A stretch of DNA of 64,000 nt from Burkholderia sp. Nafp2/4-1b. GTDB taxonomy: Bacteria; Pseudomonadota; Gammaproteobacteria; Burkholderiales; Burkholderiaceae. Below are positions 61,400 through 64,000 of this stretch, one piece after another. A program made the translations under genes and the position numbers. Each line of letters opens with the position of its first letter. Positions within the stretch are counted from its first letter, which is position 1. The notes beneath the pieces were generated by a model. That model did no database searches. It saw nothing but the letters and a program-made list of their open reading frames with translations, and was not told where the DNA came from. The DNA lies in contig NZ_ML058600.1 in assembly GCF_003635165.1 (NCBI RefSeq), positions 124,001-188,000 on the forward strand, given 5' to 3'.

Positions 61400-61792
61400 T
61401 TAACGCTTCGAGAACTGCTTTGCGCGACGTGCCTTGCGCAGACCAACCTTCTTACGCTCGACTTCACGTGCATCGCGCGTGACGAAGCCTGCGTTCGACA
61501 GCGACGGCTTCAGCGTTGCATCGTAGTCGATCAGCGCGCGGGTGATGCCGTGACGCACTGCGCCTGCCTGACCCGTTTCGCCGCCGCCGTTGACGTTGAC
61601 CTTGATGTCGAACGTCTGGCCGTGGTTCGTGAGTTCCAGCGGTTGACGCACGATCATCAGCGACGTTTCACGCGAGAAGTAGTCAGCGATGGGCTTGCCG
61701 TTGACGATGATGTCGCCCTTGCCAGCCTTGATGAAGACACGTGCGACTGCGCTCTTGCGGCGGCCCGTACCGTAGTTCCAGTTACCGATCAT
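61400..61792 (-). CDS. rpsI: 30S ribosomal protein S9
   Basis: S9 reaches into the ribosomal P site with its basic C-terminal tail. The 130-aa protein shows [19 protein letters not shown] and the ending [23 protein letters not shown]. It lies 10 bp after rplM, the universal order. Confidence 0.98.
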
Positions 61793-62382: not shown

Positions 62383-62542
62383 AGAGAATCCATGCCCCGT
62401 GCCGGCGGCGCCCGAAATGGGCCAAAATCCGGTCGTGCCCCAACACACCAGGCGAACCGAGCGCCCGGGGAGGCACCCATCGACGCGCGGCACGCAACCC
62501 TGCCGCGCCAGACCGGTCGAACACGGAAAACAACAAACAAGC

Positions 62543-62848
62543 ATGATGAAACAACGACTTACGCCCTTTCTCGCGGCCGCGTTGCTGGCCGCCGCGACAC
62601 CTGCCATCGCCGCCCGGGCCGGCTGCGAAGCCAAGCTCGACGCCCTCGATGCCCGGATCGCCGACGCCCGCGGCACCCATGCCGAAGAGCGCATCGCGCG
62701 CCTGCGCGCCGTTCGCGCACGCGTACGCCACTTCTGCGCGCACGGTCACGGCCAGGCGTCGGCCGACAACGCGCCCGCGCCCGCCGCGCGTTCGACGGAC
62801 ACGCCGCCCGGCGCGGCGTCGCAGCCGCCTGCAAGGCAGCCGGCCTGA
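62543..62848 (+). CDS. Small periplasmic protein, DUF1090-like
   Basis: The 101-aa precursor has a signal peptide (MMKQRLTPFLAAALLAAATP, cut near AIA-ARA). A mature helical region, GCEAKLDALDARIADARGTH...RIARLRAVRARVRHFC, has two cysteines that could pair in the periplasm. This layout resembles the DUF1090/YqjC family, whose role is unknown. The tail is Ala/Pro-rich. The tandem ATG at 62546 is an alternative start. Confidence 0.65.
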   Translation: MMKQRLTPFLAAALLAAATPAIAARAGCEAKLDALDARIADARGTHAEERIARLRAVRARVRHFCAHGHGQASADNAPAPAARSTDTPPGAASQPPARQPA

Positions 62849-62907
62849 CCGGCGTCAACCCGCGGTGCCGGAACGTGCAAACCGCGGGTCGATACTTGCA
62901 TGGGACG

Positions 62908-62999
62908 AAAAAAAGCCCGAACGGCTGGTTCGGGCTTAATCCACCTCAGGAGGAGAGTGGAGGAGACATGCGGAGGTTGCCGCAGCGCGACAACCAATG
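62908..62999 (-). ncRNA. Predicted small RNA (~92 nt) with anti-Shine-Dalgarno motifs
   Basis: An independent minus-strand promoter (63006-63034) and a strong intrinsic terminator (stem 62913-62937, then seven T) bound a transcript with no credible ORF. Its 5' part folds into a perfect 9-bp stem, GGTTGTCGC/GCGGCAACC, with a 3-nt loop. It then exposes an unpaired region containing CTCCTCC and TCTCCTCCTGAGG, complementary to ribosome sites (GGAGG). This layout matches base-pairing regulatory RNAs that block translation starts. I do not match it to a named RNA with certainty. Confidence 0.65.
62913..62937 (-). terminator. Terminator of the predicted small RNA
   Basis: The stem AAGCCCGAAC/GTTCGGGCTT with a 5-nt loop is followed on the minus strand by seven T (62914-62908). 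On the plus strand only TT follows, so it mainly serves the minus-strand transcript but could also stop the DUF1090-like gene. Confidence 0.8.
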
Positions 63000-63005
63000 A
63001 GGCTC

Positions 63006-63034
63006 ATTATACGAACGGGTTTTCGACTGCACAA
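63006..63034 (-). promoter_or_regulatory. Promoter of the predicted small RNA
   Basis: On the minus strand a -35 TTGTGC (63034-63029) and a consensus -10 TATAAT (63011-63006) are separated by exactly 17 bp. Upstream lies an AT-rich stretch that may act as an UP element. The start would be near 62999. Confidence 0.7.
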
Positions 63035-63326
63035 GAAAATTTGCATTGCGAAATCCAAAACCACAATGCGGGATGCATCAGGCTCGCAGGGGCCCGACAC
63101 ATTTTTCCCTTTGAAATCAATTGTCTGGGCAAAAACCGCGGGATCGACGAACTGTCGCATCTAGAGCAAAACCCCTAAAGCAGACAGGGAAATCGGCGTT
63201 CGGGGCCCCGTTGGGCAGCATCGACGCGACCGCGGCATTTCGCGTCGTGCAGCGCATCAGCCGACCATTGCGCCGCGGGCTACAATGCCGGATCGAATCC
63301 GAATCAGGCAACGCTGGAGTGCAAGC

Positions 63327-63749
63327 ATGGAATGCAAAGTAAGCTGGATGGGTCAGGACGGCATGGCGTTTTCGGCCCAGACCGGAAGCGGGCATCTCGT
63401 CGCGATGGACGGCGCGCCGGAAGGCGGCGGTCATAACCTCGCACCGCGCCCGATGGAAATGGTGCTGGTCGGCACCGGCGGCTGCACCGCGTACGACGTC
63501 GTGCTGATCCTGAAGAAGAGCCGCCAGGAAGTCACCGGCTGTTCGGTCACGCTGAAGGCCGAACGCGCGAGCGAAGATCCGAAGGTGTTCACGAAGGTCC
63601 ACTTCCACTTCACCGTCACGGGCCGCAACCTGAACCCGGCCACGGTCGAGCGCGCGATCAACCTGTCGCACGACAAGTACTGTTCCGCGTCGATCATGAT
63701 CGCGAAGACGGCCGAACTCACGCATTCGTTCGACATCGTCGCCGACTGA
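63327..63749 (+). CDS. OsmC-family protein
   Basis: OsmC/Ohr-fold proteins reduce organic peroxides or act on small thiols. The 140-aa protein begins MECKVSWMGQDGMAFSAQTG and has the two conserved cysteines: the first in VGTGGCTAYDVVLIL and the second in SHDKYCSASIMI. It is closer to the YhfA/OsmC group than to Ohr. A methionine 14 codons upstream is possible; the chosen one follows CTGGAG. Confidence 0.9.
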   Translation: MECKVSWMGQDGMAFSAQTGSGHLVAMDGAPEGGGHNLAPRPMEMVLVGTGGCTAYDVVLILKKSRQEVTGCSVTLKAERASEDPKVFTKVHFHFTVTGRNLNPATVERAINLSHDKYCSASIMIAKTAELTHSFDIVAD

Positions 63750-63809: not shown

Positions 63810-63824
63810 GCATTCGAACGGCAA

Positions 63825-64000
63825 AGCAGGCCGATAAGCCGGATTCTGTGCACGCTGCGCACCGAAGCGCACAACGCGTGGCAGCCATTCCTCTAGGCGC
63901 GCCATTGCTGACGCGCTCAAGCTTCCTACCCGCAGACGAGACGGGGGCCCCGTCCTGCATCCGAAAATGCGCGCCTGCCTACTTGGAATTGCTCCGGGTG
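63825..64000 (-). ncRNA. rnpB: RNase P RNA, 3' part, truncated by window edge
   Basis: RNase P RNA is the catalytic part of the enzyme that trims the 5' end of tRNAs. The minus strand shows the hallmark 3' end ACAGAATCCGGCTTATCGG preceded by AGAGGAATGGCTGCCACG, both universal in class A RNase P RNA. The conserved GGGTAGGAAGC region is visible before them. The 5' part continues beyond base 64000. The 3' end is placed near 63825, about 15 nt before the terminator. Confidence 0.92.

Follow-up and report, generated by a model that had tools for sequence, protein, structure and literature searches.

The closest described relatives of the RNA treated here belong to the Rfam family RF02278, the Betaproteobacteria toxic small RNAs, which take their name from a toxic effect upon cloning in E. 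coli (as cited by PMC4603805 and PMC5688073). Its member ncS27 of B. cenocepacia J2315 was described as a 92-nt "toxic small RNA" of the minus strand with a terminator and with neighbors in the arrangement -> <- -> (PMC4603805). According to PMC5688073, a processing site in NcS27 yields a double hairpin, and CU-rich segments of the RNA complement ribosome sites. The RNA is more abundant in biofilm, stationary phase, starvation, and glucose medium, its overexpression slows growth, and silencing by an antisense to the CU-rich part leads to faster growth; the same report mentions "three to five" homologues in other Burkholderia and an upstream motif common to three homologues (PMC5688073). The putative cutting site in J2315 was given as CGA/AUG (PMC7377471), and a review of the 2019 NcS27 study states that the RNA influences growth on some substrates only (PMC10987360). 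NcS27 is thought to brake nutrient use by covering mRNA start sites.

A second well-described member is S17 of Bordetella, which is processed by RNase E, depends on Hfq, and represses a target by pairing of its site 1, as demonstrated by compensatory mutations (PMC11722255). Its sites are matched by 70 of 91 candidate targets, its overexpression left exponential growth of E. coli BL21 unimpaired and modestly impaired the entry into stationary phase, and its long form holds a 32-residue frame (PMC11722255). Four RF02278 RNAs are reported for H. seropedicae (PMC7011215).

The window, meaning the whole stretch of 64,000 nucleotides of Burkholderia sp. Nafp2/4-1b that was analyzed, contains an RNA that is not new but represents the NcS27 (RF02278) of this Burkholderia, with the correspondence to NcS27 of J2315 judged from family, length, orientation, and position as printed. 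An earlier note on the DNA, made from its letters, had read the element as an anti-Shine-Dalgarno small RNA and had pointed to the published small-RNA lists. Its reading agrees with the RF02278 match of 75.2 bits and with the literature on NcS27 and S17, and the lists do hold the RNA, in print as NcS27 of B. cenocepacia (PMC4603805). Since the window RNA is a known regulator, the result validates the reading of raw sequence more than it adds a new RNA.

Anatomy and conservation of the RNA

RF02278 was the sole family at or above its Rfam cut-off within the 64-kb window. The match (62907..62968, minus strand; cmscan 75.2 bits against a gathering threshold of 50) covers the model in full (1-64) and comprises the double-hairpin core, which is about the form expected once the 5' leader has been processed off. 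The predicted fold shows the shape of the family, a double hairpin ending in a terminator with the CU-rich complement of the ribosome site unpaired. The full-length NcS27-type RNA would occupy 62908..62999 on the minus strand, as deduced from the spacing to the −10 box and the T-run at its end; seven bases from the −10 box to the inferred start at 62999 result in a length of 92 nt.

Both the length of about 92 nt with a clean terminator and the 9-bp 5' hairpin of the earlier note were recovered. The terminator hairpin (62913..62937, minus strand) was found by a terminator scan and is followed by a T-run of seven T at 62914-62908, and the 9-bp leader hairpin (62975..62995, minus strand) is present in the predicted fold and is backed by pair changes in relatives. 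Site 1, TGTCTCCTCCA (62958..62968, minus strand), is the complement of the Shine-Dalgarno sequence, and its last bases can join hairpin 1; site 2, CTCCTCC (62949..62955, minus strand), lies in and beside the loop of hairpin 1. At the position of the published NcS27 cut, the window reads CGC/ATG, with the A at 62969. The predicted fold had −39.8 kcal/mol compared to a shuffle mean of −23.6 (sd 3.2; z −5.14), and none of 200 dinucleotide shuffles was as good.

The word TCTCCTCC occurred in two copies, at 62966-62959 and 62956-62949, and nowhere else in the window. Shuffles contained 1.19 copies on average and at least two copies in 31 of 100 cases, so that the word by itself is unremarkable; what stands out is how the two copies are spaced, together with their context. 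The second full copy is peculiar to the window, because the T at 62956 was found in one of 80 aligned rows, the window's own (best 80 of at least 560 OsmC relatives). The repeated C-rich segments noticed before are thus real as two copies of TCTCCTCC, albeit with a second full copy in the window only, and the element that has been kept is CTCCTCC.

Upstream of the RNA, the −10 box TATAAT (63006..63011, minus strand; mean identity 98% in 80 rows) is preceded by a weak −35 box TTGTGC (63029..63034, minus strand), in which TTG was identical in 100% and the remaining bases in 36, 84, and 17% of the 80 rows. The two boxes and the 17-bp spacer are as initially described, but the promoter is not "excellent": the −35 box agrees with TTGACA at 3 of 6 positions, and a consensus scan listed no promoter in 62500-63400. 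The neighbors are a divergent OsmC-like protein (63285..63749, plus strand; Pfam PF02566, 65.4 bits) and, on the other side, a small open reading frame (ORF) located between the RNA and rplM (62543..62848, plus strand), which is weakly DUF1090-like (Pfam 22.0 bits, below the cut-off of 24.4). Downstream on the strand of the RNA follow rplM for ribosomal protein L13 (61803..62231, minus strand; PF00572, 156 bits) and rpsI for ribosomal protein S9 (61400..61792, minus strand; PF00380, 164 bits). The order -> <- -> of ORF (+), RNA (−), and osmC (+) matches the printed NcS27 table. In this comparison, BCAL3349 of J2315 was taken to be osmC. The 3' part of an RNase P RNA gene was also present (63819-64000, minus strand; 96.1 bits, cut by the window end), and the whole gene scored above cut-off in all 20 relatives scanned.

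A search with OsmC confirmed at least 560 relatives, the best 80 of which were used; these were Burkholderia, Paraburkholderia, Caballeronia, or Trinickia by title. TCTCCTCC was located 5' of osmC on the opposite strand and at a similar distance in 79 of these best 80 of at least 560, and the contig of the 80th locus (L070) ends too early to tell. All 20 osmC-linked loci scanned, taken from the best 80, passed the RF02278 cut-off. Identity to the window was calculated from 80 aligned rows, comprising the 79 relatives and the window itself (best 80 of at least 560). The mean was 92% over 62968-62950, 87% for the remaining core, 78% for the leader stem, 73% for the −35 box, 48% for the promoter spacer, 46% at 62906-62881, and 39% at 63118-63077. 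Within site 1, TGTCTCCTCCA, 10 of 11 positions were 100% and the first base 94% identical, and site 2, CTCCTCC, was 99-100% identical (80 rows). The CTCCTCC segments, the −10 box, and the core stems are near-invariant in the 79 osmC-linked relatives (best 80 of at least 560) while the flanks drift. The conservation test set by the earlier note thus did not refute its reading, with the reservation that three orthologues (L071, L084, and L086) have no leader hairpin and their promoter directly joins the core. The core is therefore the unit, and the leader is dispensable.

Covariation was evaluated in 39 rows, composed of 38 of the 71 distinct orthologue sequences plus the window, with leaderless rows excluded. 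In the leader stem, 86% of the cells were paired and 3 of 9 pairs showed two-sided changes; in the terminator stem, 99.5% of the cells were paired and 2 of 10 pairs showed such changes. Hairpin 1 was invariant across the 39 rows. Since hairpin 1 never varies, covariation has no word on its pairing. Cells changed on both sides numbered 33 compared to 10.4 in shuffles, with none of 500 shuffles as high. The number of pairs changed on both sides (5 observed, 3.2 in shuffles, reached by 45 of 500) and of further pair types (16 observed, 15.5 in shuffles, reached by 236 of 500) are weak measures because so many shuffles reached them. Judged from this alignment, the leader and terminator stems covary.

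Target candidates and the proposed action

Start sites that could pair with the RNA were found, as the earlier note had proposed. The pattern GGAGGAGACA followed by ATG within 1 to 10 bases yielded 16 rows in the own genome and none for the reversed pattern; after removal of a row that complements a paralogue and of a repeat listing of one gene, 14 distinct non-self places remain, two of which precede short, doubtful ORFs. Pfam analysis of 12 of the 14 candidates assigned seven to transport or outer-membrane proteins, namely three MFS transporters, a solute-binding protein, a lactate permease, a dicarboxylate symporter, and OmpW. The others were a CoA-transferase, a LysR regulator, a fatty-acid hydroxylase, a ParA-like ATPase, and one protein without a match. 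Duplex energies for 13 of the 14 places, computed from the duplex alone, ranged from −23.3 to −39.8 kcal/mol. The lean toward uptake in these annotations fits the published target lists. Evaluation of these matches needs to consider that a wider search with GGAGGAG-N4-13-ATG gave 94 rows in the genome, 16 of which continue with ACA, and 28 for the reversed pattern, and that the reversed-pattern control ignores that ribosome sites are common before ATG. The target matches are weak evidence, because ACA after GGAGGAG may be the usual context of ribosome sites.

Very probably, the RNA is an NcS27 orthologue, a processed double-hairpin anti-Shine-Dalgarno RNA that blocks translation of transporter and catabolic mRNAs. 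A sigma-70-type promoter would start the 92-nt RNA at about 62999, and the 5' leader hairpin would probably be cut off just ahead of AUGUCUCC, as published for NcS27 and inferred here. What remains would be a double hairpin of about 62 nt that carries a U-tail and two anti-Shine-Dalgarno segments. Through UGUCUCCUCCA, it may then pair with ribosome sites of the GGAGGAGACA type on mRNAs for transporters and catabolism, so that translation would be blocked, with the loop CUCCUCC as a possible second contact. The anatomy, the conservation, the paralogues, and the complementary start sites were observed in this analysis; expression, processing, the growth effect, and repression by site 1 (S17) were demonstrated by others in relatives and would by analogy be the same in this strain.

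An RNA that covers ribosome sites broadly, acting as a general brake on translation instead of a selective regulator, is an improbable alternative. We take the two C-rich segments to resemble the anti-Shine-Dalgarno end of 16S rRNA, which counts for such a brake. The family name, owed to toxicity to E. coli when cloned (as cited), counts for it as well, but overexpression of S17 spares exponential growth of E. coli BL21, 70 of its 91 candidate targets match its sites (both PMC11722255), and NcS27 acts on growth with some substrates only (PMC10987360).

The RNA may alternatively be a cis-acting leader or attenuator of rplM-rpsI, with the terminator stopping transcription before rplM and a regulated read-through. 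This is quite unlikely, although rplM is indeed located downstream on the strand of the RNA in the window and a gene for L13 follows on the same strand within 1.5 kb in 30 of the 39 distinct, best-scoring loci outside the order Burkholderiales. In the window, 676 bases and an ORF on the opposite strand separate the terminator from rplM, five other copies in the own genome (L001, L002, and L004 to L006) have no L13 gene in their 1.5-kb flanks, and the anti-Shine-Dalgarno sites belong to the best-conserved positions. Moreover, S17 acts in trans (PMC11722255), and overexpression of NcS27 alters growth (PMC5688073).

The claim of the earlier note that the minus strand holds no ORF is not true to the letter, since an 83-amino-acid frame starting with TTG (62997-62746) and a 74-amino-acid frame starting with ATG (63160-62936) exist there; coding by these frames is disfavored because of one-base indels among the relatives and the terminator. 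A short coding RNA, to which the TTG frame starting at 62997 and the 32-residue frame in the long form from Bordetella (PMC11722255) could point, or a chance terminator beside a promoter, is so improbable that both were dropped, in view of the one-base insertions and deletions in the aligned core and leader, the fold z of −5.14, the covariation, and the RF02278 match.

Relatives, gene order, and possible promoter control

The genome of Burkholderia sp. Nafp2/4-1b contained six RF02278 matches, four of them above cut-off; the weak members L005 (42.5 bits, G000:C25:25593-25661) and L006 (32.2 bits, G000:C28:215131-215183) were both below the Rfam cut-off. By match length only, L002 (60 nt), L001 (68 nt), and L004 (58 nt) are the likely counterparts of NcS03, NcS05, and NcS62. 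The family was present in all 61 genomes of the genus examined, with three to seven matches each, and a search across the order, as suggested before, gave matches in 128 of 200 Burkholderiales genomes, above cut-off in 75 of 200. Three genomes of one family (G340, G388, and G509; f179) had eight or nine RF02278-type matches each, a number above the published three to five for Burkholderia. Two or three sRNA-like matches in tandem, 130 to 220 bases apart, were seen in G323 (C3:217943, 218092, 218243), G237 (C27:1129, 1282), G205 (C83:5201, 5332), and G583 (C1:4980906, 4981126).

In the class Gammaproteobacteria, which includes this order, RF02278 matched at E ≤ 0.001 in 83 of 274 genomes, and the 3 of 274 above cut-off all came from the window's own order; none of 14 control genomes matched RF02278. 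Most of the sub-threshold class loci listed have CTCCTCCATCCTCCTTTGGTGG and a terminator in common, and in 18 sub-threshold loci scanned with Rfam, no family but RF02278 covers the element. A model trained on 14 rows, 13 from outside and one from inside the order, matched in 106 of 274 class genomes, 14 of which had supplied the training rows. This gamma-trained model found the window RNA, which was absent from the training, at E 1.6e-7 in a one-genome search. At the level of the phylum, 25 of 299 genomes matched, one of them outside the class (E 5.5e-4). L005 and L006 gave E values of 1e-5 and 7e-4 with this model when 88 kb were searched and no match at E ≤ 0.001 genome-wide. Since the gammaproteobacterial relatives are mostly below the Rfam cut-off, a widespread regulator may be unannotated.

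Gene order was determined for the best-scoring loci among the matches listed. Outside the order, 42 loci were used, three of which were counted twice, leaving 39 distinct ones. An L13 gene was located downstream on the same strand within 1.5 kb in 31 of the 42 loci (30 of 39 distinct), an OsmC gene upstream on the same strand in 10 of 42 (7 of 39 distinct), and neither in 7 of the 39. Among 30 best-scoring order loci, 17 had L13, 23 a divergent OsmC, and 5 neither, and none of the 30 top genus loci, all representing other paralogues, had L13 or OsmC. OsmC was thus on the strand of the sRNA outside the order and divergent only in Burkholderiales. A tRNA-Gln(CTG) gene was found further downstream in 12 of 13 loci examined, picked from 29.

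The place before rplM is occupied by RNAs of one kind in Burkholderia (NcS27) and in distant Gammaproteobacteria. The simplest reading of this shared place, as it follows from the gene orders, is that the ancestral form may be NcS27, with the other copies in Burkholderia derived. Convergence on a favorable genomic place would also explain the shared rplM position but is less likely.

The upstream regions of the RNAs suggest a candidate for their control, namely PhaR, the sensor of polyhydroxybutyrate. In the window, a degenerate PhaR-like box (63019..63035, minus strand; three mismatches to YTKNTGCRNYGCANMAR) lies over the −35 box. Further upstream, a kept block, CGCATTGTG...ATTTCGCAATGCAAAT (63036..63070, minus strand), is a candidate operator with four mismatches to the PhaR consensus; the mean identity was 77% over 63070-63036 compared to 39% at 63118-63077 (80 rows). 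The word TTGCNNYGCA was present within 150 bases upstream in 22 of 30 order loci (0.27 sites expected from the flanks), 25 of 30 genus loci (1.8 expected), and 46 of 79 osmC-linked loci (1.23 expected; best 80 of at least 560). Outside the order it was present in 2 of 41 loci (0.11 expected; three of these loci counted twice). By comparison of the letters, this word is the core of the PhaR consensus of Ralstonia eutropha, YTKNTGCRNYGCANMAR (PMC12849132), and is similar to the PhbF motif of Herbaspirillum, TGNTGCN3GCAA, which has footprint support (PMC3206438). The upstream motif of PMC5688073 may be the same.

The PhaR domain PF07879 was found in 136 of 200 order genomes. One sRNA promoter each was compared from 70 order genomes; 30 of these had given rise to the idea, and the other 40 (20 PhaR-bearing, 20 PhaR-less) were picked from the matches by their PhaR status before the sequence was seen, with other eligible genomes excluded. 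A box with two mismatches at most occurred in 36 of 48 PhaR-bearing and 2 of 22 PhaR-less genomes (2 of 48 and 1 of 22 in one shuffle each), and TATTAGA in 1 of 48 and 20 of 22, respectively. In the later-picked set, 13 of 20 genomes with PhaR and 1 of 20 without had the box (Fisher p 1.4e-4, a p value that ignores relatedness), and the count by family median was 13 of 19 versus 1 of 11, where p ignores relatedness again. The split between box and TATTAGA may represent one or two events, because the TATTAGA type occurs outside the order too. The element (A)ATATTAGAnnATnCTnAT was seen near the −10 box in 20 of the 22 PhaR-less order genomes (L123, L125, L177, L189, L217 to L235, and others) and in several loci outside the order, sometimes as the inverted repeat ATTAG-N6-CTAAT.

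Against PhaR, 9 of the 48 PhaR-bearing genomes reach three mismatches at best and 3 of 48 four. Three families mix PhaR-bearing and PhaR-less genomes, and in two of these the promoter type goes with the family and not with the gene: L249, the genome of f214 that bears PhaR, shows TATTAGA without a box, and L231, the genome of f207 that lacks PhaR (assembly 85% complete), shows a box with one mismatch. In the own genome, which has two clear phasin genes, one is preceded by a perfect and a one-mismatch PhaR box and the second (L206) by none at up to four mismatches. The mismatch-free consensus occurred at 6 places compared to 5 for the reversed control, so that it defines no regulon on its own.

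The osmC-linked copies of Burkholderia sensu stricto had three to five mismatches upstream (27 scored of 29; best 80 of at least 560). Upstream of its start, the window copy reached no box with two or fewer mismatches, the best having three; a two-mismatch box is located inside the leader hairpin, where an RNA and a DNA palindrome are indistinguishable. Outside Burkholderia sensu stricto, 41 of 50 osmC-linked loci (best 80 of at least 560) had a one-mismatch upstream box, and the best box lay over the −35 box in 11 of the 12 such rows listed. The other copies of the own genome had two (L001 and L002) or three mismatches (L004 and L005). Because the box of the window is degenerate, the PhaR link is proposed at the level of the family and not for the window copy. 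AniA (PhaR) was reported in a review to lower the sRNA MmgR in Sinorhizobium meliloti, and this precedent in print makes the PhaR idea more plausible and somewhat less surprising.

Joined together, these observations lead to a tentative reading, to which slightly less than even weight is given: NcS27 would descend in synteny from an ancient anti-Shine-Dalgarno sRNA before rplM-rpsI in Beta- and Gammaproteobacteria, and the family would have been put under PhaR in polyhydroxybutyrate-storing Burkholderiales. Free PhaR would sit over the −35 box of the sRNA promoters; when granules form, they would soak up PhaR and release the sRNAs, which may turn off the translation for nutrient uptake and catabolism. 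PhaR-less lineages would possess the different TATTAGA element in the promoter instead. If true, this would mean that carbon storage brakes carbon intake through RNA.

The relatives thus hint that the RNA is of ancient origin and that it is linked to carbon storage. Searches of the open-licence PMC literature found no report of an rplM-linked gammaproteobacterial family or of a PhaR link of RF02278 RNAs. The passages of PMC5688073 on the rise of RF02278 RNA in biofilm, stationary phase, starvation, and glucose name no transcription factor behind it, and the PhaR box would supply a testable one.

Comparison with known systems

The alphaproteobacterial cuckoo and CcsR RNAs carry anti-Shine-Dalgarno loops on hairpins, with CCUCCUCCC in the loops as the mark of cuckoo RNAs. 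By analogy, their mode of action may be like that of the window RNA; CCUCCUCCC is absent from 62908-62999, and membership in the cuckoo family was rejected. The anti-hemB RNA (RF02837) shares a CU-rich loop ahead of a terminator, and membership was rejected here as well (25.0 bits compared to a cut-off of 49.5). MmgR, likened by its description in the review, is like the RF02278 proposal an sRNA under negative control by AniA (PhaR), but it is alphaproteobacterial and acts on phasins and PHB.

Closer to the window RNA is S17 of Bordetella pertussis, which has the same core of site 1 and site 2 and is processed by RNase E to 67 nt; it differs by a locus next to coq7, a longer leader, and hardly any effect on the growth of E. 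coli. NcS03, NcS05, and NcS62 of J2315 (RF02278) have the core of the window RNA but no long 5' leader and are located at other loci. NcS27 differs from the window RNA by one base at the cut, CGA/AUG as printed for J2315 and CGC/ATG in the window, and probably by the second TCTCCTCC, seen in the window alone among the 80 aligned rows (best 80 of at least 560). As printed, it shares with the window RNA the family RF02278, the minus strand, the arrangement -> <- ->, a leader and a double hairpin with CU-rich segments directed against ribosome sites, and a length of 92 nt, which is the length predicted for the window RNA.
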